Under the pieces are notes generated by a model, which saw only the letters and a program-made list of their open reading frames with translations, had not been told where the DNA came from and made no database searches. Below are positions 30,245 to 45,995 of a stretch of 64,000 bases of DNA, piece after piece; position 1 is the first letter of the stretch; each line of letters opens with the position of its first letter. The DNA lies in NCBI RefSeq assembly GCF_900103975.1, contig NZ_FNIR01000009.1, positions 186,001 through 250,000 on the forward strand, written 5' to 3'. Made by a program: the position numbers and the translations under genes. Origin of the DNA: Klenkia soli. Its GTDB lineage: Bacteria > Actinomycetota > Actinomycetes > Mycobacteriales > Geodermatophilaceae.

Positions 30245-31786
30245 GTGACCCGACCCGAGGAACCCGCCACCGAGGACACCCCCACCACCGGTCGCACCGG
30301 GCGATGGGGGGCGTGGTCGAGCCTGGCCCGGCGCAACCGACCGCTGTGGATCACCGCCGCGGTGGCCGTGGTGGCACTCGTCGCCGGCCTGGTGCTGGGG
30401 CGCTACGCGTTCACCCCGGAGGACGCCGCGGCGCAGACCCCCGAGCCCGGCCTGGTCACCGCCCCGGTCGAGCTGGGCCCGCTGAGCAACGACGTGACGA
30501 TCCGCGGCGAGGTGGGCTACGCCGACCCGGTCGAGGTCACCGTCGACACGTCGAGCCTGTCCGGCCCGGCGGTGGTGACCGGGCAGGTGCCCGAGGTGGG
30601 CGCGGAGCTCGGCCCGCTGTCGGTGGCCCTGGAGCTGGCCGGCCGCCCGGTCGTCGTCCTGCCCGGTGAGCTGCCGGCCTACCGCACCCTGCGGTTCGGG
30701 GTCTCGGGTCCCGACGTCGTGCAGTTCAAGGAGGCCATGCGGGCCGTCGGGCTCGACGCCGGCGACCCGGCGAACGACGTGTTCGACCGCACCGCGGCCG
30801 ATGCCGTGGTCACCCTCTACGCCCAGGCCGGCTACCCCGCCCCCGCCGGCGAGGAGGGCGCCGCCGAGGGCGTCGCCGCCGCCCAGGAGGGGGTCCGATC
30901 GGCCCAGCAGGGGCTCACCGCAGCGCAGGCCGAGCTGTCGGCCAAGCGGGCCGGCCCCACGGCCGTCGACGTCCGGACGGCGGACAACGCGGTGTCCAGC
31001 GCCCAGCGCGCCCTCGACGCCGCGCTCGCCACCTCCCCGGACGACGCCGCGACCATCGGCGACCTGCGCGACGCCCTGGCGCTGGCCCAGCTGCAGCGCC
31101 AGCAGCTGAACGCCGCGCCCGACACCTCCGCCGAGCAGGCCGCGGTGACCAACGCCCAGAACGCGGTCTCCGACGCCCAGGACGCCCTCGCGGTGGCCCA
31201 GCAGGACGCGCTCCCGGCCCTGCCGGCCGGCGAGATCCTCTACCTCACGCAGCTCCCCCGCCGGGTCGACGCCACCGAGCTGAAGCGGGGCGCGGTGCTG
31301 GAGGGCACCGCCATGACGGTCTCCGGCGCCACCCTCGGCCTGTCGGGCACCGTGGCGCCGGCCGACGCCCGCCTGCTCACCGCCGGCATGACGGCGACCT
31401 TCGACCTGCCCGACGGCGGCGAGGCGACCGCGACGATCACCGCGGTCACCCCCGGGGCCGATGCCGAGGCGCGCTCGACGGTGGAGCTGAGCCCGGCCGA
31501 CCTCACGCCCGAGCAGGTCACGGTCCTGCAGGGGACGAACGTGCGGGTCTCCATCCCGGTGGGCGCGACCGAGGGCGACGTCCTCTCGGTGCCGCTGGCC
31601 GCGCTGACCGCCGGCCCGGGCGGGGAGTCCCGGGTCGAGGTCGTCGACGGCGACCCCCGCGACGGCGACCGCGCCGAGACCCGGCTGGTCACCGTGGAGA
31701 CCGGGCTGGCCGCCGACGGCGCGGTGGAGATCCGGCCGACCGACGGCAACCTCGGCGAGGGCGACCTCGTCGTGGTCGGCAGATGA
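30245..31786 (+). CDS. MacA/HlyD-like periplasmic adaptor with peptidoglycan-binding-like domain
   Basis: A 513-residue protein anchored by one N-terminal helix (about residues 36-56, LWITAAVAVVALVAGLVLG). Then come a beta-barrel/lipoyl-like part (VELGPLSNDVTIRGEVGY), a peptidoglycan-binding-like domain (LRFGVSGPDVVQFKEAMRAVGL...FDRTAADAVVTLYAQAGY, about 150-195), a long coiled coil (about 205-330) and a C-terminal HlyD barrel with GATEGDVLSVPLAAL. It bridges the membrane permease to the wall in MacB-type export. GTG 30245 starts 2 bases after the lipoprotein stop, and its own stop overlaps the ATPase start (ATGA). Confidence 0.85.
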   Translation: MTRPEEPATEDTPTTGRTGRWGAWSSLARRNRPLWITAAVAVVALVAGLVLGRYAFTPEDAAAQTPEPGLVTAPVELGPLSNDVTIRGEVGYADPVEVTVDTSSLSGPAVVTGQVPEVGAELGPLSVALELAGRPVVVLPGELPAYRTLRFGVSGPDVVQFKEAMRAVGLDAGDPANDVFDRTAADAVVTLYAQAGYPAPAGEEGAAEGVAAAQEGVRSAQQGLTAAQAELSAKRAGPTAVDVRTADNAVSSAQRALDAALATSPDDAATIGDLRDALALAQLQRQQLNAAPDTSAEQAAVTNAQNAVSDAQDALAVAQQDALPALPAGEILYLTQLPRRVDATELKRGAVLEGTAMTVSGATLGLSGTVAPADARLLTAGMTATFDLPDGGEATATITAVTPGADAEARSTVELSPADLTPEQVTVLQGTNVRVSIPVGATEGDVLSVPLAALTAGPGGESRVEVVDGDPRDGDRAETRLVTVETGLAADGAVEIRPTDGNLGEGDLVVVGR

Positions 31787-32499
31787 CCGCACCCGCGCCG
31801 GCGGTCGAGCCCACGGCACCCGAGGAGGTACCGCCGGCCGTCGAGCTGCGCGACGTCACCCGCTCGTTCCCGGGGCCGCCCGAGGTGCAGGCGCTCAAGG
31901 GCGTCAACCTGACCATCCCCGACGGCGACTACGTCTCGATCATCGGGCCCAGCGGCTCGGGCAAGTCCACGATGCTCAACCTGCTGGGGCTGCTCGACCG
32001 CCCCACCGTCGGGGAGTACCGGCTCGGCGGGGTGCTCACCGGTGCCCTGACCGAGGACGAGCGGGCCGCGTTGCGGGCCCGTCAGCTGGGCTTCGTCTTC
32101 CAGGCCTTCCACCTGATGTCCCGGCGCACGGTGCTGGACAACGTCATGCTGCCGATGCTCTACGCCGGCACCCCGCGCGCCGAGCGCGAGCCGCGGGCCC
32201 GCGCCGCGCTCGAGCGGGTGGGCCTGGGCCACCGCATGGGGTTCCTGCCCGGCCGGCTCTCCGGCGGTGAGCGCCAGCGGGTCGCCGTGGCCCGTGCGGT
32301 GGCCACCCGGCCGCGGGTGCTGCTGGCCGACGAGCCCACCGGCAACCTGGACCAGACCACGACGGGCGAGATCATGGCGTTGTTCGAGGAGCTGCACGCC
32401 GACGGGCTCACCCTGGTGCTCATCACCCACGACGGCGGGGTCGCCCGGCGGGCCCGGCGCAGCATCCGGCTCACCGACGGCCGCGCGGAGGAGGTGTGA
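31783..32499 (+). CDS. ABC transporter ATP-binding protein (MacB/LolD type)
   Basis: A 238-residue nucleotide-binding subunit. Walker A is IIGPSGSGKSTML (about residues 52-64), the Q-loop is GFVFQAFHL, the signature is LSGGERQRVAVARAVA, Walker B is VLLADEPTGNLD and the switch His is in VLITHD. The N-terminal 18 residues are an extra Ala/Pro-rich tail. It powers the FtsX-type permease encoded next (GTGA overlap) with the upstream adaptor, together a MacAB-like exporter probably controlled by the upstream two-component system. The cargo is unknown; peptides, lipids or antibiotics are usual for the class. Confidence 0.93.
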   Translation: MTAPAPAVEPTAPEEVPPAVELRDVTRSFPGPPEVQALKGVNLTIPDGDYVSIIGPSGSGKSTMLNLLGLLDRPTVGEYRLGGVLTGALTEDERAALRARQLGFVFQAFHLMSRRTVLDNVMLPMLYAGTPRAEREPRARAALERVGLGHRMGFLPGRLSGGERQRVAVARAVATRPRVLLADEPTGNLDQTTTGEIMALFEELHADGLTLVLITHDGGVARRARRSIRLTDGRAEEV

Positions 32500-33767
32500 G
32501 GCTCCGTCGTCGACCGTCCTCGGCGGTGGACCCCACGCCCGCCGCCGATCGGTTCCGCTTCACCGACCTGCTGGGCGAGGCCACCGCCGACATCGGCTCC
32601 CGCCCGGGCCGACTGGTCACCACGATCGTGGGCACCGTGCTCGGCGTGGCCGCGCTCATCGCGACCATCGGCTTCGCGCAGACCGCGGCCGGCCAGATCG
32701 CCCGGCAGTTCGACGCCTCGGCGGCCACCGCGCTGGTGGTCACCCCGGCGACGGCGAACACCGGCGGGGGCGACGGATCCACGGTGGCCACGGGGGTGCT
32801 GCCCTGGGACGCCGTCGACCGCGTGGAACGGCTGGCCGGGGTGGAGTCCGCCGCGCTGCTGGCCGAGCTGTCGCTGCCCGAGGCGACCGTCACCGCCGTC
32901 CCCGTCAACGACCCGTCGCAGGCCCCGGTGGCGCCGCCGGCGCTGTACGCCGCGTCGGCCGAGCTGATGGACGCCGTCGGCGGGCACCTGGCCACGGGCC
33001 GGTTCTTCGACTCCGGCCACGACGCCCGCGGGGACCGGGTGGTGGTGCTGGGTGCCCGGGCCGCCGACCGGCTGGGCGTCGAGCGGGTGGACAGCCAGCC
33101 CTCGATCTTCGTCGACGGGATCGCCTACGCCGTGCTGGGCATCGTCGACCGCACCGACGTGCGCGGCGAGCTGCTGGACGCGGTGATCATGCCCACGGGC
33201 ACGGCCCGGGCCGACGTCGGCCTCGCGACCCCCGGTGACCTGCAGGCCCGCATCGCCGTCGGCACCGGGCCGCAGCTGAGCGAGCAGGCACCCCTGACGC
33301 TGGCGCCCGACGAGCCCGGCAGCCTCGACGTGCGGGCGCCCTCGGCGCGGTCGCAGCTGGGCCAGTCGGTGCAGGCCGACGTCAACGGGGTGTTCGTGAT
33401 CCTCTCGGTGATCGTGCTGCTGGCCGGCGGGGTCGGCATCGCCAGCGTGACCATGCTGTCGGTCGTCGAACGCACCGGCGAGATCGGCCTGCGCCGCGCG
33501 GTGGGCGCCACCTCCCGGCAGATCGCCGGGCAGTTCGTGGCCGAGTCCGTGGTCATCGGCGTGCTGGGCGGGCTGATCGGGGCCGCGGTGGGTGTCGCCG
33601 CCGTCGTGGTCATCTCCGCGGCGCGCGACTGGGCGCCGGTGGTCGACCCCTGGGTGGCCCTCGGCGGCACGGTGCTCGGCGCCGTCCTCGGGCTGGTCGC
33701 CGGCGGACTGCCGGCCCGCCGCGCCGCCCGCATCGAACCCGTCGAGGCCCTCCGCGGCGGCACGTGA
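32496..33767 (+). CDS. ABC transporter permease (MacB/FtsX family)
   Basis: A 423-residue permease with one N-terminal helix (LVTTIVGTVLGVAALIATIGFA, about residues 42-63), a large extracytoplasmic MacB periplasmic-core domain (about 65-300) and three C-terminal helices of the FtsX domain with the hallmark TMLSVVERTGEIGLRRAVGATSRQIAGQFVAESVVIGVLGG (about 325-365) and ending PARRAARIEPVEALRGG. It closes the four-gene efflux operon. GTG 32496 overlaps the ATPase stop by 4 bases. One four-helix permease per operon implies a homodimer, as in MacB. Confidence 0.92.
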   Translation: MRLRRRPSSAVDPTPAADRFRFTDLLGEATADIGSRPGRLVTTIVGTVLGVAALIATIGFAQTAAGQIARQFDASAATALVVTPATANTGGGDGSTVATGVLPWDAVDRVERLAGVESAALLAELSLPEATVTAVPVNDPSQAPVAPPALYAASAELMDAVGGHLATGRFFDSGHDARGDRVVVLGARAADRLGVERVDSQPSIFVDGIAYAVLGIVDRTDVRGELLDAVIMPTGTARADVGLATPGDLQARIAVGTGPQLSEQAPLTLAPDEPGSLDVRAPSARSQLGQSVQADVNGVFVILSVIVLLAGGVGIASVTMLSVVERTGEIGLRRAVGATSRQIAGQFVAESVVIGVLGGLIGAAVGVAAVVVISAARDWAPVVDPWVALGGTVLGAVLGLVAGGLPARRAARIEPVEALRGGT

Positions 33768-33863: not shown

Positions 33864-34181
33864 TCAGGTGTCGGGGAACAGCCCGGCCAGCGCAGCCGCA
33901 CCGCGCAGCGTCTCGAGCTCGGCGGGGGTGGCCCGCAGTGCCCCGCGGTCGACGGCGTCGTCGATGTCGGACCACTCGATCTCGGCCCACAGACCACCAC
34001 CGAGCTCGTCGACGTCGGGCTGCACGCGGAGCAGCCCGGCCGCCAGCAGCGCGAAGACGCTGGGGCCTTCGTCGATCACCAGCTCGAGCGCGGGTTCCAG
34101 CCCGGGGTCGCCGCAGGCGGTGCGGATGAGGGCGACCTCGAGCTCCTCGGCCGTCCAGACGCCCAGCAGCGACGGCCTCAC
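33864..34181 (-). CDS. Hypothetical protein downstream of mysD
   Basis: A small acidic, Leu/Ala/Glu-rich protein of 105 residues (LLGVWTAEELEVALIRTACGDPGLEPALELVIDEGPSVFALLAAGLL...LWAEIEWSDIDDAVDRGAL) with no membrane segment and no domain I recognise. It follows the D-Ala-D-Ala ligase-like gene. GTG 34181 starts the conserved-looking part; an alternative GTG 34238 in the same frame would overlap the mysD stop by 4 bases, a pattern common in this genome, and give 124 residues. If the longer start is right, the gene is translationally coupled to the sunscreen cluster and belongs to it. Otherwise it may be an unrelated neighbour. Confidence 0.6.
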   Translation of the reverse strand: MRPSLLGVWTAEELEVALIRTACGDPGLEPALELVIDEGPSVFALLAAGLLRVQPDVDELGGGLWAEIEWSDIDDAVDRGALRATPAELETLRGAAALAGLFPDT

Positions 34182-34234
34182 CGGCGTCCGTCCAGGTGCG
34201 CGAAGATCACCGGCAGACCCTACGAGCGCTCCGG

Positions 34235-35239
34235 TCACCGCGCGAGGGCAGCCCGCACCGCGTCGGCGAACAGCTCGGGCAGCTCGATCCCCGCGGCCCG
34301 GGCCATCGTGGGGATGACGCTCTGCCGGGCGAACGAGTTGTACAGGCCCGCCTCGAGGAACCACGGGACGCCGTCGGGGTCGACCCGGAAGTCGAAGAGC
34401 GAGTAGTCCCGGCAGCCCAGCGCCACGTGGGCGCGGCGGGCCGCCGCCCAGACCGGGGCCGTCACCGGGTCGGCCGGGTCCACGATCCAGACGGTCGGGG
34501 TGTCCTTGGCCATCAGGCCCAGCCGGCCGTCGTCGGACCTGCGGATCTTGTCCTCGGCGGTGCGCACCTCGTGGCCGGCCGCGAACCCGTACTCCTCCAA
34601 CGGCAACGGCACCAGCTCGCCGTCCCGGACGACCACCCCGCAGCGCACCTCGCGACCCAGCGGCACGAAGTCCTCGACCAGCACGTCCGTGGACTCGGCC
34701 CGGGCGGCGGCGAGCGCCGCCGAGAACTCCTCGGGTGCGCGGACCAGCGAGATCCCGGCGGAGTTGTCCGCGTCGACGGGCTTCACGACGACGGGCGGCG
34801 CCAGCGTCGGCTCCGCCCCCGGCGGCAGCACCTCCCCGGCCGGCACCCGCACCCCGGCCGCGGCGACCACCGCGCGGGCCCGCGCCTTGTGCGCCCCCGT
34901 CGCCATGACGTCGGACGGGTTGCCGACGAACGGGATGCCCAGCAGGTCCAGCAGCGACCGGTAGGTGGTCATGCCCGGGATGCAGAACATCTGCGGCAGC
35001 GCGACGTCGACCTCGAGGGAGGTCAACCGGGCCAGGGCCTCCCCCACGGGCACGGGCGGGGCGTCCGCCAGATCGGCCAGCGACGCGGGGAACCGCCACG
35101 AGCCGTCCGGCGACACGTGGGCCACCAGGTGCTCGTGGGCGGTGCCCACGTTGGCCAGGCAGTCGGCGGCGTAGAGCCGGGACAGGTCGTCCATGAACGC
35201 GCTGGTCGGCGAACCGACCAGGTGCAGCACCCGGGTCAT
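34235..35239 (-). CDS. mysD: MysD-like D-Ala-D-Ala ligase homologue (mycosporine amino acid ligase)
   Basis: A 334-residue ATP-grasp ligase of the D-Ala-D-Ala ligase fold. It has an N-terminal Rossmann-like part with VALPQMFCIPGMTTYRSLLDLLGIPFVGNP, ATP-binding VVVKPVDADNSAGISLVRAPEEF (about residue 150) and metal-binding SLFDFRVDPDGVPWFLEAGLYNSF (about 285). A chromosomal cell-wall Ddl would sit near murein genes; this one is joined to MysC by a TGATG overlap. In known clusters MysD adds a second amino acid (Ser, Thr or others) to mycosporine-glycine to give shinorine or porphyra-334. The amino acid preferred here cannot be read from sequence. Confidence 0.85.
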   Translation of the reverse strand: MTRVLHLVGSPTSAFMDDLSRLYAADCLANVGTAHEHLVAHVSPDGSWRFPASLADLADAPPVPVGEALARLTSLEVDVALPQMFCIPGMTTYRSLLDLLGIPFVGNPSDVMATGAHKARARAVVAAAGVRVPAGEVLPPGAEPTLAPPVVVKPVDADNSAGISLVRAPEEFSAALAAARAESTDVLVEDFVPLGREVRCGVVVRDGELVPLPLEEYGFAAGHEVRTAEDKIRRSDDGRLGLMAKDTPTVWIVDPADPVTAPVWAAARRAHVALGCRDYSLFDFRVDPDGVPWFLEAGLYNSFARQSVIPTMARAAGIELPELFADAVRAALAR

Positions 35240-36576
35240 CAGTCGCCCGCCGGCTGCACGAGCTTGCCGATGTTGAAGTCGATCCGCATCCACGCGCCCC
35301 GGGACCGCAGGCTGGCCAGCAGCAGCAGCGGGATCTGCACGTGGTGCAGCACCAGGTAGGGCAGGGGGTCGGCGCGGTCGAACACCGCTTCCTTGCCCGC
35401 GCGCACGACGCGCCAGCGCTCCCGCGCGGTCCGCGGAGCGCTGAGCGCTCGCCAGAGCTCGTGGTAGAGCCAGTAGGTGGGGCGGCTGCCGGGCAGCGGT
35501 TCCAGCGGGGTGTCCCGCGTGCCGAGGTAGGCGTCGGCCAGGCCCGGGTGGGCCGGGTGGTCGTGGAACATCGTGATCGCCGAGTGGGTGCGCGGATTGC
35601 ACTCGATCGCGTACGGGTTGCCCTCGGCGTCCTCGAGGAAGTCGAACGAGACCTGCCCGGTGAGCCCGAGCTCGCGCACGAACGTGGTCACCCACTCGCG
35701 GATCCGCGGCCGCTCGACCTGGGCGTAGTTGACCTGGAACGCCGACGACGGGCAGCAGCACCACACGGTGACGACGCCGTCCCGGGCGGTGGAGTGCGTG
35801 CAGATCTCCGTGCCGGTGACGAACTCCTGCAGGATCCAGGGGTTCTCGGGGCTGATCGGCTTGCCCGCCAGGAACTGCTCGGTGGCCGCGCGGGAGGGCA
35901 GCGGCAACGGCGTGAGGTCCAGGCGGTGCACCGGGTCGTAGGCGATCGACTTGAGCACGTAGGGCTTCGTCGCGCCGGTGAAGTCGTGGTCGAGCACCTG
36001 GTCCGCCGAGGTGATCAGGTGGGTGTCGGGGACCCCGAGGCCCAGCGACGCGGCCAGCTCGGTGAACCGGTGCTTGTCGTCCAGGGTGCGCACCATCTCG
36101 GCGTCCAGGCTGAGCACCTCGCACTCCCCGGACAGCAGGTCGGCCGCGGCGGCGTCGAACTCCGAGGCCACCGGCGAGCAGACCGGCACGTAGAGGTCCA
36201 CCCCCTCGGCCCGGACGACGTCCAGCAGCGCCTGCGCGTAGCCGGGGTCCCGCGGGTCGGGCACGACGTGGAACGCGGCCACCGCGCGGGAGAACCGGTG
36301 CCCGGTGAACCGGTAGGTCGCCTTCTCCACCAGCACCACGCGGTGCCCGGCGGCGTGGAAGGACCGGGCCAGCTGCAGCGCCTTGGTCATCTTCCCGCCG
36401 CTGATCAGCACGGTCCGCGGCTGCGCCGCCGGCGCCGGGCGCGGGGGACGGGTGGTGAGCAGCGCCGCCGCGGTGACGGCGAGGTCCACCGGCAGGGTCA
36501 GTGCCAGGCCGGCCAGCACCCCCGCCGACCGCCACGGCGTCGGGGTCGGCCGGGTGGTCGTGGCGGGGGGTGCCAC
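35239..36576 (-). CDS. mysC: MysC-like ATP-grasp ligase (mycosporine-glycine synthase)
   Basis: A 445-residue ATP-grasp protein. A hydrophobic N-terminal stretch (about residues 18-45) is followed by TVLISGGKMTKALQLARSFHAAGHRVVLVEKATYRFTGHRFS, DKHRFTELAASLGLGVPDTHLI, KPYVLKSIAYDPVHRLDLTPLP and the ATP/metal site FDFLEDAEGNPYAIECNPRTHSAITMF. This set and length match MysC, which activates 4-deoxygadusol with ATP and adds glycine to form mycosporine-glycine. GTG 36576 is 11 bases after the dioxygenase stop; no good ribosome site is seen, so the exact start is less sure. The next gene (mysD) starts on its stop codon. Confidence 0.87.
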   Translation of the reverse strand: MAPPATTTRPTPTPWRSAGVLAGLALTLPVDLAVTAAALLTTRPPRPAPAAQPRTVLISGGKMTKALQLARSFHAAGHRVVLVEKATYRFTGHRFSRAVAAFHVVPDPRDPGYAQALLDVVRAEGVDLYVPVCSPVASEFDAAAADLLSGECEVLSLDAEMVRTLDDKHRFTELAASLGLGVPDTHLITSADQVLDHDFTGATKPYVLKSIAYDPVHRLDLTPLPLPSRAATEQFLAGKPISPENPWILQEFVTGTEICTHSTARDGVVTVWCCCPSSAFQVNYAQVERPRIREWVTTFVRELGLTGQVSFDFLEDAEGNPYAIECNPRTHSAITMFHDHPAHPGLADAYLGTRDTPLEPLPGSRPTYWLYHELWRALSAPRTARERWRVVRAGKEAVFDRADPLPYLVLHHVQIPLLLLASLRSRGAWMRIDFNIGKLVQPAGD

Positions 36577-36587
36577 CAGGTGCGGGG

Positions 36588-37397
36588 TCAGGAGGTCACC
36601 CCGGCGTCCGCGGCGGCCGGGCCGTGGTCGCGGACCATGCCGCGGTGCATCACCCGGTCGCCGACGACGACGGAGTGGTCGCCGCGGTGCAGGACGCAGG
36701 CGTTGTCCCACATCACCACGTCGCCCGGGGACCACGCGTGGGCCAGGCTGTTCTCCCCGGTGGTCGAGTGGGCGTAGAGCTGGGCGACCAGCTCGGCGGC
36801 CTCGTCGTCGGGCAGCCCGCTGACCGACGCGCACCGCTTCGGGGTGGTCAGGAACAGCGCCGGCCGGTGGGTCAGCGGGTGCGGGCGGACCACGGGGTGC
36901 TCGGCCTCGGTCTCGTCGTCCGCGGTGAGCAGGGTCGGGTCGATGCCGGTGACCACGTGCCGGATGCTGCGCTCGCGGACCCGGTCGGCCAGCTCGGCGG
37001 GCAGGGTCTCCCAGGCGCGGTACTGCGAGGTGAACACCGTCTCGCCGCCCTGCGAGGGGATCTGCACGGCCCGCAGCGCGGTGTACGCCGGCGGGGTGGA
37101 CAGGTAGGAGCTGTCCACGTGGAAGGTGCTGCGCGGCGGGTCGGCCCGGCCCACGTTGCTGATCACGTTGAGGTCGGGGAACCCGTCGACCGGGGTCTCG
37201 CCGGCGGTGAAGGTCAACGGGCCGAACGACTCCAGGAAGGCCAGGAAGGCGGTGTCGTCGACGCGCTGGTCGGGCAGGACGACGACGCCGTGCTCGGCCA
37301 GCGCGGCGCGCAGGCCCTCGACGTCGGCGGCGGCCAGCGGTCCGACGTCGACGCCCTCGACGACGGCCCCGAGCGGCTCGAGCGGCTGGATCTGCAT
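36588..37397 (-). CDS. TauD/TfdA-type Fe(II)/2-oxoglutarate dioxygenase within the mycosporine cluster
   Basis: A 269-residue dioxygenase with the facial triad His93-x-Asp95 (TFHVDSSY) and distal His237 (DNACVLHRGDH), and Arg252 (MHRGMV) for the 2-oxoglutarate carboxylate. The N-terminal LGAVVEGVDVGPL is typical of TauD. It lies between mysB and mysC on the same strand with gaps of about 10 bases, and GAGGAG precedes ATG 37397. The known cluster dioxygenase MysH (palythine formation) belongs to the phytanoyl-CoA hydroxylase group, not TauD, so this may be a convergent or new tailoring step. Hydroxylation or oxidative C-N cleavage of a mycosporine is inferred from position only. Confidence 0.82.
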   Translation of the reverse strand: MQIQPLEPLGAVVEGVDVGPLAAADVEGLRAALAEHGVVVLPDQRVDDTAFLAFLESFGPLTFTAGETPVDGFPDLNVISNVGRADPPRSTFHVDSSYLSTPPAYTALRAVQIPSQGGETVFTSQYRAWETLPAELADRVRERSIRHVVTGIDPTLLTADDETEAEHPVVRPHPLTHRPALFLTTPKRCASVSGLPDDEAAELVAQLYAHSTTGENSLAHAWSPGDVVMWDNACVLHRGDHSVVVGDRVMHRGMVRDHGPAAADAGVTS

Positions 37398-37407
37398 GGG
37401 GTTCTCC

Positions 37408-38184
37408 TCAGCTGGGGGTGCGGCGGACCAGGGTGATGCCGTCGCGCAGGGGGACGAGCACCTGCTCGACCCGCGGGTCGGCGGTCACCCGGGTGTTGAA
37501 CGCGGCGATGGCCTCGCCGTTGGCGGTGCGCTCGCCGGCCCACGGCTGGCCCTGCATCAGGGTGTTGTCGACCGCGACCAGGCCGTCCGCGGCGAGCAGA
37601 CCCGAGTCGAGCAGGGTGTCGAGGTAGCCGGCGTACCCGGCCTTGTCGGCGTCGACGAACACCAGGTCGAAGACCTGCCCCTCGGCCGCGAGGGCGGCCA
37701 GGGAGTCCGCGGCGGGCCCCACCCGGACGTCGATCCGGGCACCCGCGGGGAAGCAGCCCCGCGCGAAGGCGGCGACGTCGGGATCGAGCTCGCAGGCCAC
37801 GACCTCGCCGTCGGCGGGCAGCGCCTCGGCCATGGCCAGCGCGCCGTAGCCGGTGAACATGCCGATCTCCAGCACCCGGCGGGCGCGGGTCATGCCGACC
37901 AGGAAGGCCAGGAACCGGCCCTCGACGTGCCCGGACAGCATCTCGGCCTCCAGCGTCCCGCTCCAGGGTGCGGTGCGGGTGCGCTCGGCCAGCGCGGCCA
38001 GCCCCGGGGACTCCGGGGAGGTGTGCTGCTCCAGGTAGGGCTCGAAGCCGACCGCGAGCTCCAGGACGGCGGCCAGCTCGGCCGCCACGTCGGGCGGCAG
38101 GTCGGCCCGGGCGCAGACCGCGTCCAGCCGCGCCGCCAGGATCCCCAGCGGCGTGACCGGACGCAGTCCGACGGCCGGGGTCAC
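37408..38184 (-). CDS. mysB: MysB-like O-methyltransferase (4-deoxygadusol synthase step)
   Basis: A 258-residue SAM-dependent methyltransferase of the CCoAOMT-like class: RRVLEIGMFTGYGALAMAEALPADGEVVACELDPDVAAFAR (SAM-binding motif I and the acidic loop, about residues 85-125) and FDLVFVDADKAGYAGYLDTLL (metal/catalytic region). The N-terminal block AVCARADLPPDVAAELAAVLELAVGFEPYLEQHTSPES fits MysB-type enzymes, which methylate desmethyl-4-deoxygadusol to 4-deoxygadusol. GTG 38184 overlaps the mysA stop by 4 bases, as in many two-enzyme DDGS/O-MT pairs. Confidence 0.87.
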   Translation of the reverse strand: MTPAVGLRPVTPLGILAARLDAVCARADLPPDVAAELAAVLELAVGFEPYLEQHTSPESPGLAALAERTRTAPWSGTLEAEMLSGHVEGRFLAFLVGMTRARRVLEIGMFTGYGALAMAEALPADGEVVACELDPDVAAFARGCFPAGARIDVRVGPAADSLAALAAEGQVFDLVFVDADKAGYAGYLDTLLDSGLLAADGLVAVDNTLMQGQPWAGERTANGEAIAAFNTRVTADPRVEQVLVPLRDGITLVRRTPS

Positions 38185-39425
38185 GGACCTGCCACGACCT
38201 CGCTGACGACGGGGCTGGTGCGCGGCACCATGAACGCGTCGACCCCGGCACCCCCGCGCGGCAGCGCAGCGGCGACCTCGCGGTGCAGCTCGAGGGTCTG
38301 CACCAGCTCGTCGTCGGCGACGTCGTTCATGAACGTGCACTCGCCGATCGGCTTCGGGGCGGCCGCCCGGAGGAGGCCGTCGCGGGTCTGCAGGATCGAC
38401 CTCGTGGAGTCGCGCAGCAGGTCCGCGGTGAGGTGCGGGCTGTCGACGGTGAGGCCCAGCCGGCTCATCAGGGCGTGGATCCGGTCCCGGTCGGCGACGG
38501 TGATGTACCCGCGCTCGGCGGCCAGGGTCGCCGAGTAGGCCATGTCCACCGAGATGGCGTGCCCGTGGAAGTACGGGATGTCCGGGGTGAGCTCGAGGGT
38601 GGGGCTCCAGGTGTGGCCGTAGGCGATCACCCGGTCGAGGTCCAGCTCGGCCAGGTTGGGCACCTCGAGCTGGAGCATCGTGTCGATGGCCTCGTCGGTG
38701 ACCTGGTCGGCGACCTTGCGGATCTCGGGGTTGCCGTCGAGGTGGCCGAACCGGGTGCGCAGCAGCTCCTCGCCGTGCTCGTCGAGGAGGTCGAACACCG
38801 TGCGGTTCGCCACGACGGCGATCTTGATCAGCTCGGCCATGCCGTTGCGCACCTGGTCCTCGGCGAGCGAGGCCAGGAAGGAGAAGTCCAGGAAGACCGT
38901 GGACGACGCGTGGTAGGCGCCGAGCCGGTTCTTGGCCTTGCCGTGGTTCACCGCGACCTTGATCGACACGCTGGCGTCGATCAGCCCGATCAGCGTGGTG
39001 GGGATGCGGATGTAGGGCGTGGACCGCTTGTAGGCCGCGCAGGCGAACCCGGCGACGTCGGTGACCAGGCCACCGCCGACGACCAGCGGGGCCTCGGTGC
39101 GCAGCAGGCCGTAGGACCCGAAGACGTCGACCAGGCGCTCGAGGGTGTCCATGGTCTTGTCGGTCTCGGCGATGGCCACCGGGACGATCGTGAGCTCGAC
39201 GCCGGCGGCGGCGAAGTAGGCCTCCATCGCCTCGCGGTGCAGGGCCAGCACGTTCTCGTCCACCACGGCCAGGCAGCGGCCGGCCTCGCGGTAGCAGTCG
39301 GCCAGCTGCTGGTTGTGCGGGGCGAACACGCCGTCGACCGGCACCAGGCGGTACTCGGTGCGGTGCACGGCCTCGACGGAGAAGCCCCCGTCGGTGCGGG
39401 TGACGCTGGAGCTGACGGTGGTCAT
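38181..39425 (-). CDS. mysA: MysA-like sugar-phosphate cyclase (DDGS / EEVS family)
   Basis: A 414-residue member of the dehydroquinate-synthase superfamily. It has NAD-binding VVGGGLVTDVAGFACAAYKRSTPYIRIPTTLIGLIDASVSIK, the lysine segment RNGMAELIKIAVVA, and metal ligands in AYGHTWSPTLE and FHGHAISVDMA. The extended N terminus (TEYRLVPVDGVFAPHNQQLADCY) and the AYKR variant set it apart from shikimate DHQS. In mycosporine clusters this enzyme turns sedoheptulose 7-phosphate into desmethyl-4-deoxygadusol (DDGS); EEVS homologues make 2-epi-5-epi-valiolone instead. The adjacent O-methyltransferase favours DDGS. GAGGGGA precedes ATG 39425, which is 11 bases after the HAD gene stop. Confidence 0.88.
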   Translation of the reverse strand: MTTVSSSVTRTDGGFSVEAVHRTEYRLVPVDGVFAPHNQQLADCYREAGRCLAVVDENVLALHREAMEAYFAAAGVELTIVPVAIAETDKTMDTLERLVDVFGSYGLLRTEAPLVVGGGLVTDVAGFACAAYKRSTPYIRIPTTLIGLIDASVSIKVAVNHGKAKNRLGAYHASSTVFLDFSFLASLAEDQVRNGMAELIKIAVVANRTVFDLLDEHGEELLRTRFGHLDGNPEIRKVADQVTDEAIDTMLQLEVPNLAELDLDRVIAYGHTWSPTLELTPDIPYFHGHAISVDMAYSATLAAERGYITVADRDRIHALMSRLGLTVDSPHLTADLLRDSTRSILQTRDGLLRAAAPKPIGECTFMNDVADDELVQTLELHREVAAALPRGGAGVDAFMVPRTSPVVSEVVAGP

Positions 39426-39436
39426 GGCGGGTCCCC

Positions 39437-40096
39437 TCAGGCCTGCAGGCCGGTCGGCAGGTCGGCCGGGTCCAGCCGGTCCACGACCCGTGCGGCGCCG
39501 AAGTCGTGCCCGGCGGTGTTGGTGTTCGGGAAGGCCAGGCAGGTGACGCCGGCCGCGGTGGCGGACTCCACCCCGCCGACGTTGTCCTCGACCGCGACGG
39601 CCTCCGCCGCGTCCTCGCCGAGGGTCTGCAGCGCGTAGGCGTAGGCGGCCGGGTCGGGCTTGGACGTCGACACCACGGAGCTGTCCACGACCAGGTCGAA
39701 GTCGGACAGGCTCAGCTCGTCGACACCCTGCACGAGGGCCACGACGTTCTCGGGCGACGTCGTCGTCACCAGCGCGACCTTGCCGCCGGCCTGCTTCGCG
39801 CTGCGCAGGGACTCCAGCACGCCCGGGCGGGCGGTCAGGCCCCCGCGGCCCAGCTTCTGCTGGAAGAGCTCGGACTTGGTCGCGTGCACGGCGGCGGCGT
39901 CGACGTCCTGGCCGCGGTCGGCCGCGTAGCCGGCGATCCGGTCGGCCCCGCCGTTGCCGCGGAGCATCTCGCGGTACTCGTCGGTCTCCCAGCGCCAGTC
40001 GAGGTCGTGGGCGGCGAACGCCTCGTTGAAGGACTCCCGTTGGAGCTCGGAGGTGTCGGCGATCGTGCTGATGGAGCCGAACAGGAGAGCGGACAC
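39437..40096 (-). CDS. HAD-fold protein lacking the catalytic DxD (pseudo-phosphatase), first gene of the mycosporine operon
   Basis: A 219-residue HAD-IA homologue. Motif I, normally FDxDGT, reads LLFGSISTIADTSELQ, so the nucleophile and acid aspartates are Gly7 and Ile9. Motifs II (VTTTS, 110-114), III (Lys146 in STSKPDP) and IV (Glu170-Asp171 in VEDNVGG) remain, and the cap (FNEAFAAHDLDWRWETDEYREML) is intact. Phosphatase chemistry is therefore unlikely, and binding, regulation or another reaction is more plausible. GTG 40096 has GAGG 6 bases upstream; a longer in-frame start at 40246 would cover the promoter and is rejected. It leads the operon, 11 bases before mysA, so a role in the cyclase step is inferred. 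Confidence 0.8.
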   Translation of the reverse strand: MSALLFGSISTIADTSELQRESFNEAFAAHDLDWRWETDEYREMLRGNGGADRIAGYAADRGQDVDAAAVHATKSELFQQKLGRGGLTARPGVLESLRSAKQAGGKVALVTTTSPENVVALVQGVDELSLSDFDLVVDSSVVSTSKPDPAAYAYALQTLGEDAAEAVAVEDNVGGVESATAAGVTCLAFPNTNTAGHDFGAARVVDRLDPADLPTGLQA

Positions 40097-40149: not shown

Positions 40150-40180
40150 GACTGTATCCAGGTAAGGGATCTTTACGCAG
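40150..40180 (-). promoter_or_regulatory. Candidate promoter/operator of the mycosporine operon
   Basis: On the minus strand TACAGT (40156-40151) could be a -10 element about 55 bases before the first start codon. Just upstream is a dyad, GTAA-gggatct-TTAC (40162-40176), one of few A/T-rich spots nearby. No canonical -35 is seen, so an activator or alternative sigma factor is possible. Confidence 0.3.
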
Positions 40181-42602: not shown

Positions 42603-42746
42603 CCGCCTCCCCCCTGGGGATGACCCGGGTCCGACCACGGGTGCAGCACAGGGTCCCGACAGCCGGTCCCCAGCTCCGACGCGGACGGGGGGTGCCCGCC
42701 GCCACGCTGGACGGCGACCGCGATCCCCGTCCGAGGAGTGCCCCCG

Positions 42747-43538
42747 ATGTCCGTGCCCGTGATGACCGTCCCCGGCGAGGCCCCGCCCACCACCGCCGCC
42801 GTCCGCGCCGCCGGCCTGCGCAAGACCTACGGGAAGGGCGAGACCGCCGTGCACGCCCTCGGCGGGAGGGTGGGCGACGATGCAGCCGGGGTCGACGTCG
42901 GGTTCGACCGGGGTCGCTTCACCGCGATCATGGGCCCCTCGGGCTCGGGCAAGTCGACGCTGATGCACTGCCTGGCCGGGCTGGACACCGCCAGCGCGGG
43001 TCAGGTGTGGTTGGGCGACACCGAGCTGACCAGCCTGCGCGACGACCAGCTGACCAAGCTCCGCCGCGAGCGCATCGGCTTCGTCTTCCAGGCGTTCAAC
43101 CTGCTGCCGGTGCTCACCGCCGCCGAGAACTTGACGCTGCCGATGCAGCTGGCGGGCCGGCGTCCCGACCAGGCCTGGATGGACGACGTCGTCGCCCGCC
43201 TCGGCCTGCGCGACCGGTTGGGCCACCGCCCCTACGAGCTGTCCGGCGGGCAGCAGCAGCGGGTCGCCGTGGCCCGGGCGCTGCTCCCCCGCCCCGACGT
43301 CGTCTTCGCCGACGAGCCCACCGGCAACCTGGACTCCCGGGCCGGCGCCGAGGTGCTGGGGCTGCTGCGCTCCAGCGTCCGCGAGACCGGCCAGACCGTC
43401 GTGATGGTCACCCACGACCCGGTCGCCGCGGCCTACGCCGACCGCGTGGTGCTGCTGGCCGACGGCCACCTGGCCGGCGAGGTCCACCACCCCACCGCCG
43501 ACGCCGTGATCGACGCGCTCCGCGGGCTGGGTGGCTGA
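42747..43538 (+). CDS. ABC transporter ATP-binding protein (MacB/LolD type) with an N-terminal insertion
   Basis: A 263-residue nucleotide-binding protein. Walker A is IMGPSGSGKSTLM (about residues 64-76), the Q-loop GFVFQAFNL, the signature LSGGQQQRVAVARALL, Walker B VVFADEPTGNLD and the switch His in VMVTHD. Between the usual AVHAL and VDVGF strands there are about eight extra residues, GRVGDDAA, that I do not expect in the family; they sit in the loop before Walker A. GAGGAG lies 8 bases before ATG 42747 (a GTG at 42738 is in frame). The permease gene follows after 3 bases; no adaptor protein is encoded here. Confidence 0.9.
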   Translation: MSVPVMTVPGEAPPTTAAVRAAGLRKTYGKGETAVHALGGRVGDDAAGVDVGFDRGRFTAIMGPSGSGKSTLMHCLAGLDTASAGQVWLGDTELTSLRDDQLTKLRRERIGFVFQAFNLLPVLTAAENLTLPMQLAGRRPDQAWMDDVVARLGLRDRLGHRPYELSGGQQQRVAVARALLPRPDVVFADEPTGNLDSRAGAEVLGLLRSSVRETGQTVVMVTHDPVAAAYADRVVLLADGHLAGEVHHPTADAVIDALRGLGG

Positions 43539-43541
43539 GGC

Positions 43542-45995
43542 ATGAACCGCGTGCTCCTGGCCCAGGTGCGGGCCAACGCCGGCCGGCTGGTCGCCTCGAT
43601 GACCGCCGTCGTCATCGCCGTCGCCTTCGTCGTCGCCACCCTGGTGCTCAACCAGACCGCCAAGTCCACCGTGCTGGAGGCCGTCGGCGCCCAGTACACC
43701 GGCACCGACCTCGTGCTGTCCTCCACCGACTTCGAGCCCCTCGGCGACGAGGCCGACGCCGTGGCCGCCGTCCCCGGGGTCACCGCCGTCGCCCCCGCCT
43801 GGGACACCTCGCTGCAGGCGGTCCTGCCCGGCACCACCGGCGCCCGCTACGTCTCGATCGGGGCGGTCGCCGACGCACCGGAGCTCCGCTGGCAGCAGCT
43901 CGCCGGCGGCGGCTTCCCCACCGGGCCCGGTGAGATCGTGCTGTCCGCGGACTCCGGTGCGGCCGTCGGCGACGTGCTGACCTTCACCACCTACGACGCC
44001 GCCGGCACCGAGATCACCGGCGACCTGACCGTCACCGGGCTGGTCGACACCTCGGCGTCGATCACCGGCGGGCTCTACACCCAGGGCTTCGTGACCCCGG
44101 CCCAGGCGCAGGACTGGGGCGCCCGGGCCACCGAGCTCCTGGTCGCCGGCGATCCCGACCCGGTCGCCCTGCAGGCCGCGGTCACCACCCGCGCGGTCAC
44201 CCTGCAGACCGGCGAGGAGGCTGCCGAGACCGCCGCCGCGGCCCTCACCGGCAGCTCCGACGCCCTCGCCGTCGTCCTGCTGGTCTTCGCCACCGTCGCG
44301 GTGCTGGTCGCCGGCCTGGTCATCGCCAACACCTTCGCCGTCCTGCTCGCCCAGCGGACCCGCGAGCTGGCCCTGCTGCGCTGCGTGGGCGCGACCTCGT
44401 GGCAGATCCGGCGCAGCGTGCTGGGCGAGGCCGCCCTCACGGGCCTGGCCGCCTCGGTGCTCGGCGTGCTGGCCGGCGTCGGGCTGGCCGCCGGGGTGTC
44501 CGCGCTGGCCTCGGCCCTCGACTCGCCGATCCCGCTGTCCGGGGTGTCCGTGCCCTGGGTCGCCGTCGTCGCCGGGCTGGTCGTCGGGCTGGTGACCACC
44601 GTGGTCGCCGCGCTCGCCCCGGCCCGCGCCGCCACCCGGGTGGCCCCGCTCGCGGCGCTGCGGCCCACCGACGCCGCTCCGCTGCGCTCGCGGAACGGCG
44701 TCCTGCGGCTGGCGCTCGGCCTGCTCATGCTGGTGCCGGGCGTCGCGCTGCTGCTCTACGGCGCCGCGATCGGCCAGGTGCTCGTCGCGCTGCCCGGCGG
44801 GGTGCTGAGCTTCCTCGGCGCCCTGCTGCTGGCCCAGCGCGCCGTCCCGCCGGTGGTCGCGCTGGCCGGCCGGCTGCTGGGCCGGGTCGGCGGCGTCCCC
44901 GGACGGCTCGCGGCCGGCAACGCCACCCGCAACCCGCGCCGGACGGCGGCCACGGCCACCGCACTGATCATCGGCGTCACGCTGACCACCGCGATGGTGG
45001 TGGGCGCCTCCTCCACCCGGGCCACGGCCTCGGCCGGCCTGGACGCCGCCTACCCCACCGACGTGGTCGTGCAGGACTACGGCGGCGAGCTGCCCGGATC
45101 GCTGCTGGGCCAGCTCGAGGGCGTGTCCGGGGTGGCCGCCGGCGTCGCGGTCACCAGCGGCGACCTCACCGGCCCCGACGGCGAGGTGTGGCCCGCCGAG
45201 GGCTTCGACGTCCCGGCCACGCTGCCGGTGCTCCGGTCCACGACCGACCAGCCGCTCCCCGCGACGGGCGAGGCCGTGCTGCCGCCCTACCTCGCCGAGC
45301 AGTTCGGCGTCACCACCGGCGACCCGGTGACGTTCACCGCCGAGGACCGGTCGCTGACCTTCACCACGGTGCTGGGCAGCGACGACGTCTACTCGCCGCG
45401 GTTGACCGCCGCCGAGCTCACCGCCCTGGTGCCCGACGCCGGCACCGGACAGGTCTGGCTGCGGCTGGCCGCCGACGCCGACACCGCCACCGCGGTCGAG
45501 GACGTCACCGACCTGGCCGGCACCGCCGACGCCGCCGCCGTGGTCACCGGGATCGCCAGCGAGCGGGCCGCGATCGACGACGTCCTGGACACCCTGCTGC
45601 TGGTCGTCACCGGCCTGCTGGGGGTGGCCGTGCTGATCGCGCTCATCGGGGTGGGCAACACCCTGGCGCTGTCGGTGGTCGAGCGACGCCAGGAGAGCGG
45701 GCTGCTGCGGGCCCTGGGCCTCACCCGCGGCCAGCTGCGCGGGCTGCTCGCCTGGGAGGCCGTGCTGGTCGCCGGGGTGGCCGCGGTGCTCGGCGTGCTG
45801 CTGGGCGGGGGCTACGGCCTGGTGGGCGCGGCCTCGGTGCTGGGCTCGCTGTCCGCCGACGGGACGGTCGTCTCCATCCCGTGGCTGCAGATCGGCGCGA
45901 TCGTCGTCGTCGCCACCCTGGCCGGGCTGCTGGCCAGCGTGCTGCCGGCCCGCCGCGCCGCCCGCACCGCCCCGGTGGCCGCGATCGCCTCGTAG
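43542..45995 (+). CDS. Large ABC permease with two FtsX domains
   Basis: An 817-residue permease with eight to ten helices. Helix 1 is SMTAVVIAVAFVVATLVL, followed by an extracytoplasmic domain to about residue 240. A first FtsX domain (FATVAVLVAGLVIANTFAVLLAQRTRELALLRCVGATSWQIRRSVL, about 247-291) ends in LAPARAATRVAPLAALR. Then come central helices, a second outer domain and a second FtsX domain (GVGNTLALSVVERRQESGLLRALGLTRGQLRGLLAWE) ending LPARRAARTAPVAAIAS. This duplicated form works as a monomeric permease with a pair of ATPase subunits, like LolCDE-type or antimicrobial-peptide exporters of actinobacteria. Cargo unknown. Confidence 0.92.
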   Translation: MNRVLLAQVRANAGRLVASMTAVVIAVAFVVATLVLNQTAKSTVLEAVGAQYTGTDLVLSSTDFEPLGDEADAVAAVPGVTAVAPAWDTSLQAVLPGTTGARYVSIGAVADAPELRWQQLAGGGFPTGPGEIVLSADSGAAVGDVLTFTTYDAAGTEITGDLTVTGLVDTSASITGGLYTQGFVTPAQAQDWGARATELLVAGDPDPVALQAAVTTRAVTLQTGEEAAETAAAALTGSSDALAVVLLVFATVAVLVAGLVIANTFAVLLAQRTRELALLRCVGATSWQIRRSVLGEAALTGLAASVLGVLAGVGLAAGVSALASALDSPIPLSGVSVPWVAVVAGLVVGLVTTVVAALAPARAATRVAPLAALRPTDAAPLRSRNGVLRLALGLLMLVPGVALLLYGAAIGQVLVALPGGVLSFLGALLLAQRAVPPVVALAGRLLGRVGGVPGRLAAGNATRNPRRTAATATALIIGVTLTTAMVVGASSTRATASAGLDAAYPTDVVVQDYGGELPGSLLGQLEGVSGVAAGVAVTSGDLTGPDGEVWPAEGFDVPATLPVLRSTTDQPLPATGEAVLPPYLAEQFGVTTGDPVTFTAEDRSLTFTTVLGSDDVYSPRLTAAELTALVPDAGTGQVWLRLAADADTATAVEDVTDLAGTADAAAVVTGIASERAAIDDVLDTLLLVVTGLLGVAVLIALIGVGNTLALSVVERRQESGLLRALGLTRGQLRGLLAWEAVLVAGVAAVLGVLLGGGYGLVGAASVLGSLSADGTVVSIPWLQIGAIVVVATLAGLLASVLPARRAARTAPVAAIAS

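Follow-up and report, generated by a model that had tools for sequence, protein, structure and literature searches.

A window of 64,000 nucleotides from the genome of Klenkia soli (contig NZ_FNIR01000009.1, positions 186,001 to 250,000; assembly of 4.76 Mb in 25 contigs) carries seven minus-strand open reading frames (ORFs) that encode, in order, a HAD-fold protein (HAD), a desmethyl-4-deoxygadusol synthase (DDGS, MysA), MysB, a TauD-type oxygenase (TauD), MysC, MysD and a small protein. Judged from its gene content, the cluster is almost certainly real and of the mycosporine-like amino acid (MAA) type. In its HAD and in all aligned homologues from such clusters, both catalytic aspartates of motif I have been replaced. 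By its residues, the protein is very probably not a phosphatase; their pattern suggests that its part in making the sunscreen is to bind something and not to cleave it. The presence of HAD and TauD genes in MAA clusters is already published; the missing nucleophile of the HAD is the part that was not found in print. As to the cluster itself, its main contribution is to extend a published kind of actinobacterial MAA cluster to Klenkia-like bacteria. The loss of the nucleophile matters more: it shifts the question from which phosphate is removed to which ligand is bound, and one small protein is enough to test this new question directly.

Loss of Motif I in the Cluster HAD

HAD motif I reads DxDx(T/V), in which the first aspartate is the nucleophile and the second the acid/base. 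The corresponding stretch of the window HAD is F-G-S-I-S-T. A C1-type core, a helical cap inserted after motif I and motifs II to IV were all found, and the DxD was absent. A previous sequence-only reading of the window had labelled the protein HAD-fold; the fold was upheld, while the absence of the catalytic nucleophile had been overlooked.

Homologues were collected by scanning for patterns drawn from two conserved stretches, SELQR and VDAxAVH, a choice that biases the sample towards the family and in which motif I played no part; the best 80 of 189 stretches were used. Across 81 aligned HADs (window and these 80), G7, S8, K146, E170, D171 and N172 were each found in 81 and T112 in 80, and position 9 was isoleucine in 79 and leucine in 2. 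When the set was enlarged to 89 cluster HADs, no two of them identical, G7 and S8 were present in 89/89, with I9 in 87 and L9 in 2. At loci L178 to L202, which were collected blind to the HAD, the motif read GSI in 21/22 and GSL in 1/22. Outgroup HADs had aspartate at positions 7 and 9 in 41 of 42 cases, the exception being L151 (identical to L203, discussed below); further outgroup counts use the 41 HADs with aspartate at both places.

The remaining motifs are retained. T112 of motif II was present in 88/89 cluster HADs (serine in one), and K146, E170 and D171 of motifs III and IV in 89/89 and in 41/41 outgroups. Residues common to both groups (88–89/89 and 41/41) include these three as well as Y41, K74, G92, P147 and G175. 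A second set, which includes G7, S8, I9, S16, E17, Q19, A58, F189, P190 and N193, was specific to the cluster HADs (87–89/89 versus 0/41); S16 (89/89) replaces a glutamate found in 37/41 outgroups, and Q19 (89/89) a histidine found in 41/41.

Median pairwise dN/dS within the genus was 0.36 for the HAD and 0.20–0.38 across all seven ORFs (MysA 0.20, MysB 0.34, small ORF 0.37, TauD 0.38; 6 sequences for the small ORF and 8 for each other ORF), which supports coding for all seven; the HAD gene, like those next to it, is under purifying selection. Because motifs II to IV and the new residue set are fixed, the loss of both motif I aspartates does not look like decay. A role as an ordinary pathway phosphatase was rejected, since both aspartates are gone in 89/89 aligned proteins. 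No report of the missing nucleophile was found in the searched literature, whose coverage left out most subscription journals. The accessible text of the publication closest to this work (PMC11888242) gave no match for nucleophil-, catalytic, active site, pseudoenzyme, CbbY or phosphatase.

Fold and Relatives of the HAD

An AlphaFold2 model of the HAD, based on 38 aligned HADs (mean pLDDT 95.6, pTM 0.91), was closest among solved folds to 4uat, the CbbY of Rhodobacter sphaeroides, with 36% identity and a TM of 0.86 normalised to the query length; CbbY was also the top profile match to solved structures. Structure 4uat is the CbbY D10N mutant crystallised with xylulose-1,5-bisphosphate (XuBP). 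In the profile alignment, G7 of the window HAD stands opposite D8 of CbbY and I9 opposite D10; the residue mutated in CbbY for substrate trapping is thus naturally replaced in the window HAD, and the nucleophile is gone too. CbbY (4uat, 4uar, 4uav) and the MAA HADs share the fold, the Lys, the Glu-Asp and several cap residues. They differ in that CbbY has the DxD and is a phosphatase, whereas the MAA HADs have G-S-I/L, with CbbY E17 replaced by serine and H20 by glutamine in the alignment. The portion of PMC10212915 consulted describes CbbY as a specific XuBP phosphatase.

Two distant, CbbY-like relatives without the nucleophile, both with G-S-I, were encountered outside MAA clusters. One lies beside trkA/trkH on plasmid pROLI81 of Roseobacter litoralis (L204:7989-8660). 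The other lies beside glgC in a cyanobacterium (L203:8852-9553), where the 19-kb stretch gave no further match to an MAA gene. The two hint that CbbY-like sugar-phosphate binders lacking the nucleophile may form a broader family. In a tree with the motif columns masked, 37 MAA HADs and L203 formed one clade (93.3/84), in which the branch of L203 was long and its placement poor; L204 branched basally to the DxD group. A FastTree with the motif columns kept placed the 89 cluster HADs as monophyletic, with a support of only 0.67.

Layout of the Cluster and Assignment to the MAA Pathway

The order of the seven tightly spaced or overlapping minus-strand genes and their extent (33864–40096) were exactly as given in the sequence-only reading, and Pfam and NCBIfam agreed with its gene labels (Table 1). 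Intergenic gaps measured 11 bp from HAD stop to MysA start, 10 bp from MysB stop to TauD start and 11 bp from TauD stop to MysC start. MysA and MysB overlap by 4 bp (GTGA), MysC and MysD by 1 bp (TGATG), and the small ORF either overlaps MysD by 4 bp or starts at a second GTG 53 bp past the MysD stop. This spacing is operon-like. MysC has an N-terminal extension of approximately 50 residues that reads as hydrophobic, and MysD scored far under the cut-offs of the D-Ala ligase models among the NCBIfam matches listed.

Table 1. Features of the MAA cluster region in the Klenkia soli window (positions of the window).
Feature	Position	Strand	Remarks
HAD-fold protein, CbbY/beta-PGM-like, nucleophile-less	39437..40096	-	GTG start; motif I DxD replaced by G7-S8-I9; PF00702, 74.6 bits
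MysA, DDGS-class sedoheptulose-7-phosphate cyclase	38181..39425	-	PF01761/PF24621 DHQ_synthase; 5tpr match
MysB, SAM-dependent O-methyltransferase	37408..38184	-	Methyltransf_3 PF01596, 154 bits
TauD/TfdA-type Fe(II)/2-oxoglutarate oxygenase	36588..37397	-	Facial triad H93-x-D95...H237 and R252; PF02668, 194 bits
MysC, ATP-grasp ligase	35239..36576	-	NCBIfam NF005315, 436 bits (cut-off 406), residues 51-440
MysD, D-Ala-D-Ala ligase-like ATP-grasp enzyme	34235..35239	-	Dala_Dala_lig_C PF07478, 63 bits
Small ORF	33864..34238 (alternative start 34181)	-	No Pfam/NCBIfam family at E 0.001
Candidate operator/promoter palindrome	40162..40176	-	GTAA-N7-TTAC; begins 80 nt upstream of HAD start

The window cyclase scored 537 bits to PDB entry 5tpr, which we take to be the Anabaena DDGS, and 247 bits to 4p53, presumably ValA, an EEVS (the PDB files label the two '3-dehydroquinate synthase' and 'Cyclase', respectively). 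Among 397 genomes of the order, cyclase scores were bimodal: 28 genomes reached at least 513 bits, and the next class at most 268. A DDGS-class cyclase was thus found together with an adjacent O-methyltransferase, a MysC-type ATP-grasp enzyme and a Ddl-like MysD. The MAA assignment, already proposed in the sequence-only reading, was borne out: as far as sequence can show, it is secure because of the DDGS-type cyclase scores, cleanly separated across the order, and the MysB, MysC and MysD genes downstream. An alternative in which the cyclase is an EEVS or a shikimate-type dehydroquinate synthase (DHQS) and the ligases serve another pathway has in its favour the Pfam label DHQ_synthase and a match to TIGR01357 (186.6, under the cut-off of 305). 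It is highly improbable in view of the scores given above, of at most 125.2 bits to dehydroquinate synthases among the matches listed, and of the O-methyltransferase, MysC and MysD that come after the cyclase. A shikimate or EEVS identity of the cyclase was rejected on this score separation and on another cyclase in the same genome that fits PF01761 better (153 versus 103 bits).

Distribution of HAD and TauD in MAA Clusters

Within Klenkia, the cyclase cluster was present in 7 of 8 other genomes (the negative genome is 73% complete), and the order HAD-MysA-MysB-TauD-MysC-MysD was identical in all seven. No cyclase match at E 1e-60 was obtained in 27 sampled genomes from 11 other genera of the family. 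Among named loci, the nearest homologues came from Klenkia and from one strain labelled Modestobacter sp. Leaf380. Of the seven-gene order of the earlier reading, the six genes from HAD to MysD therefore recurred in every cluster-bearing genus mate, whereas the seventh, the small ORF, recurred in five and was found in this genus only. Because the six-gene order is kept in the genus mates and most of the 80 HAD loci have homologues of these genes around them, it lies far beyond chance.

The order-level survey of 397 genomes was blind to the HAD. Its 28 DDGS genomes (window, 7 genus mates and 20 others) had a HAD in 26 and a TauD in 25 of the cyclase neighbourhoods, or 18/20 and 17/20 when the eight Klenkia genomes were set aside. 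The two HAD-less genomes (G800, G854) belong to one genus and were also without clustered TauD, with only distant TauD homologues (29–30% identity) elsewhere in the genome. In G962, a clustered HAD was present and no TauD was found at E 1e-20. Two of the 28 (G976, G907) had no O-methyltransferase in the cluster. In a sample of 396 genomes from the phylum, 58 contained some HAD match at E 1e-15, and seven, including the window, reached at least 191 bits (next best 111); all seven HADs adjoin MAA genes. The cyclase matched at E 1e-55 in eight of the 396 genomes, five of them above 500 bits, and a HAD was present in 5/5.

Some of the 80 HAD loci stop at contig ends, where absences were not scored as losses, and this set shares some genomes with the order-level neighbourhoods. 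Genes found beside the HAD were the cyclase (77), O-methyltransferase (OMT, 73), TauD (73, including two remnants described below), MysC (74), MysD (73) and the small ORF (4). The commonest order was HAD-cyclase-OMT-MysC-MysD-TauD (48/80), followed by the arrangement of the window, HAD-cyclase-OMT-TauD-MysC-MysD (17/80), and mysA was directly downstream of HAD in 75/80.

Conservation of HAD and TauD/TfdA genes in MAA clusters of Actinomycetota, Pseudomonadota and Bacillota, and not of Cyanobacteriota, is reported in the accessible text of a preprint of February 2025 (GATOR-GC, PMC11888242), which calls the role of the HAD unvalidated. Its Pseudonocardia alni window and Rhodococcus fascians D188 operon resemble the Klenkia soli cluster in combining an MAA core with HAD and TauD in one Actinomycetota region. 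The HAD was assigned there by Pfam, and both genes are said to be absent from Cyanobacteriota (PMC11888242, same portion), whereas here HAD and TauD adjoin MAA genes on one contig labelled Chamaesiphon (L101) and one labelled uncultured cyanobacterium (L126), for both of which a binning or assembly error is possible. The two genes were also adjacent in a third cyanobacterial locus, in an Oscillatoriales cyanobacterium metagenome-assembled genome (L129:8484-10113), where the pair has an unrelated neighbourhood and the genome gave no DDGS at E 1e-50.

An MAA HAD was found in 1 of 292 Cyanobacteriota genomes (Chamaesiphon), 21 other matching genomes reaching at most 166 bits; DDGS was found at E 1e-100 in 14 of 194. 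Cyanobacterial mysABCD clusters (with mysH, a PhyH-type oxygenase) have the same core enzymes and the same order of chemistry as the window cluster. Unlike the window, they showed no match to HAD or TauD in stretches of 11.7–17 kb around 14 MAA loci of 13 non-Chamaesiphon genomes. The earlier claim that HAD and TauD, embedded in the same unit, lie outside the textbook route was upheld. The protein beside the MAA genes of Nostoc HK-01 (L207) is presumably of PhyH type, and one of the 14 loci (L220) has a homologue 77% identical to it.

Several clusters depart from the common gene content. Microlunatus flavus (L118) has HAD-TauD-MysC-MysD without MysA or MysB, and no DDGS was found in its genome at E 1e-50; its precursor may be imported or made another way. 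Loci L180, L181 and L107 (genomes G976, G907 and G456) are MAA clusters that read HAD-MysA-MysC-MysD-TauD, in which no O-methyltransferase separates MysA from MysC. A search of these three genomes for a close OMT at E 1e-20, run without a positive control, found none, and the products may be non-methylated mycosporines. MAA-like clusters L196 and L197 (G165, G303) combine HAD, OMT, MysC, MysD and TauD with a cyclase 36–39% identical to that of the window; the L197 cyclase had 5tpr as its best PDB match (236 bits, versus 185 to 4p53), and the two are perhaps a deep-branching type.

The TauD Oxygenase and the Likely Product

Among 101 aligned TauD rows (92 distinct sequences; short matches of fewer than 200 residues, L067 and L127, were left out), H93, D95 and R252 were each present in 99 and H237 in 101. 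By analogy, R252 is the arginine that binds 2-oxoglutarate. The exceptions are L100 and L116, which have gaps at H93, D95 and R252. In these two Actinomycetospora loci, the TauD between MysB and MysC is a remnant (30–32% identical) and the HAD is still open. Judged by its residues, the window TauD is a live oxygenase with an intact Fe(II)/2-oxoglutarate site. It matched PF02668 only, and the phytanoyl-CoA dioxygenase domain that marks MysH was not found. According to the available part of PMC10510106, MysH is PhyH-type and MysI TauD-type, and glycine-arm removal is proposed for both. MysI of Nostoc sp. UHCC 0926 thus resembles the window TauD, by description only, as a TauD/TfdA-family protein of an MAA pathway; it differs in sitting with MysE/MysF in a separate cluster (PMC10510106, same part).

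Two reported experiments bear on the product. Synthetic MysA, MysB and MysC genes of Rhodococcus fascians D188 alone led to mycosporine-glycine (PMC11284840, as far as its accessible text goes), so that the core can do without HAD and without TauD. In addition, the portion of PMC11888242 consulted cites a 2018 meeting abstract, unpublished, in which expression in Streptomyces coelicolor of the D188 operon with HAD and TauD yielded shinorine, palythine and palythine-serine. Because of the latter report, an MAA of the known palythine type is more likely than an undescribed compound, and a palythine-type product formed via TauD is probable for the window cluster. The suggestion of the sequence-only reading that the product is a mycosporine not yet described has become less likely, since the association of HAD and TauD is published and the best hint for TauD, palythine, belongs to a known class (PMC11888242).

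An undescribed modified mycosporine, formed if TauD acts on the ring or on an arm by hydroxylation or desaturation and the HAD participates, is accordingly rated unlikely. It would fit the distinctness of the TauD family from MysH, the proposal, in the accessible part of PMC10510106, that the TauD-family MysI acts at another position, and the possibility of a different amino-acid choice by MysD. Against it, the nearest reported operon yielded known compounds (PMC11888242, second-hand as above), and the HAD is without the residues for phosphoryl transfer.

Proposed Pathway and Role of the HAD

In the proposed pathway, MysA would convert sedoheptulose 7-phosphate to desmethyl-4-deoxygadusol, which MysB would methylate. 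MysC would then add glycine to give mycosporine-glycine, and MysD a second amino acid to give a compound of the shinorine/porphyra-334 type. TauD would most likely hydroxylate the alpha-carbon of one amino-acid arm; the arm would drop off and leave the amine of a palythine-type MAA. The HAD would bind, and leave unhydrolysed, either an MAA intermediate or a phosphorylated ketose, most obviously sedoheptulose 7-phosphate; as an accessory of the pathway, it could raise flux or gate it. As a whole, the explanation that we marginally favour is an actinobacterial MAA cluster with a palythine-type product made via TauD and a HAD that serves as a non-hydrolysing accessory and may bind a ketose phosphate. 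Gene content, the class of each enzyme, the motif I loss in all 89 aligned cluster HADs, conservation and linkage were observed; from there on, we infer the product, the TauD reaction, and the ligand and role of the HAD. As sunscreens, MAAs attract commercial interest; a flux-raising accessory or a TauD route to palythines, if true, would be useful for heterologous production.

A ligand-binding function is inferred for the HAD because residues of the phosphate and metal site are conserved while the nucleophile and the acid/base aspartate are lost. That the HAD is a phosphate-ligand-binding accessory is put forward tentatively. Binding of a ketose phosphate is favoured because its relative CbbY acts on XuBP and the MAA route starts from sedoheptulose 7-phosphate. 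A more specific version, in which hydrolysis was lost before the protein spread with the MAA pathway and a dedicated pseudophosphatase today traps either a ketose phosphate, namely sedoheptulose 7-phosphate, or some phosphorylated intermediate, thereby coupling pentose-phosphate supply to MAA synthesis, must be called doubtful.

Several observations weigh against the favoured explanation. A HAD occurs in clusters without an intact TauD (L086, L099, L189 and L198, and the remnant loci L100 and L116), and at L118 and L129 it stands beside TauD where no DDGS was found, which tells against a strict link to MysA. MysABC function in a heterologous host without the HAD, so that any flux role is not essential there. 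S8, S10 or D14 could allow the HAD other chemistry. The two nucleophile-less relatives L203 and L204 lie outside MAA clusters, and the trees appear compatible with one or with several losses of the DxD rather than with a single origin of all nucleophile-less CbbY-like HADs alone. As to the product, that of the Klenkia soli cluster is predicted from its genes, and the evidence for palythine is second-hand and unpublished and leaves the contributions of TauD and HAD undivided. By Pfam, TauD and MysH fall into separate families, and what TauD acts on is not deducible from sequence.

The HAD could alternatively be a working enzyme with a chemistry independent of an Asp-phosphate, in which S8, S10 or D14 would be an active-site residue; its substrate might be, for instance, the TauD-hydroxylated arm or a phosphorylated MysC intermediate. 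The ten residues fixed in 87–89/89 cluster HADs and in 0/41 outgroups look like a new function over decay, motif II to IV residues are retained, and HAD and TauD are adjacent in three cyanobacterial loci. The persistence of the HAD without TauD, and the 14 cyanobacterial MAA loci with neither protein nearby (L220 having the PhyH homologue instead), make such an enzyme improbable; moreover, collapse of a carbinolamine needs no enzyme.

Finally, the HAD might assist TauD as a chaperone or structural partner, and the pair might travel as a palythine module. The two are missing together from 2 of the 28 order-level clusters and from the 14 cyanobacterial MAA loci, and TauD adjoins the MAA HAD in all three cyanobacterial loci that have it. 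The two HAD-less genomes share a genus, perhaps reflecting one event, and the gene next downstream of HAD is mysA in most loci (75/80). Clusters that have the HAD with no intact TauD, in which the remnants are without H93, D95 and R252, indicate that the HAD is not simply a TauD partner; they weaken an obligate partnership, and the chaperone role is regarded as unlikely.

Small ORF, Flanking Genes and Upstream Palindrome

The small ORF was matched in five of the seven cluster-bearing genus mates and, at E 1e-8, in 4 of the 80 HAD loci, all four from Klenkia; no match was obtained in the other two genus mates or in 76/80 HAD loci, some of them cut by contig ends. It was rejected as a pathway gene on the basis of these missing matches. 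Within the searched genomes it is genus-restricted, and it is probably not part of the MAA pathway.

Two gene sets read from their ORFs as MacB/FtsX-like ABC transporters flank the cluster on the plus strand (31783-33767 and 42738-45995). The set at 42738 was found near the cluster in four of seven genus mates; no match to the flank genes was obtained in L018, L019 and L021, nor in L020, a 5.8-kb contig. The MacB-type transporters were rejected as MAA exporters, as the flanks are not kept with the cluster in all genus mates.

Outside the genus, the palindrome GTAA-N7-TTAC upstream of HAD (Table 1) was found within one mismatch at five loci (one exact, L068) at scattered distances, against a shuffling mean of 3.3 of 112. 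A general MAA operator was rejected on account of this near-shuffled frequency and the scattered distances. Within the genus, the palindrome was present within one mismatch, 80–88 nt upstream, in seven of eight genomes, the window included.

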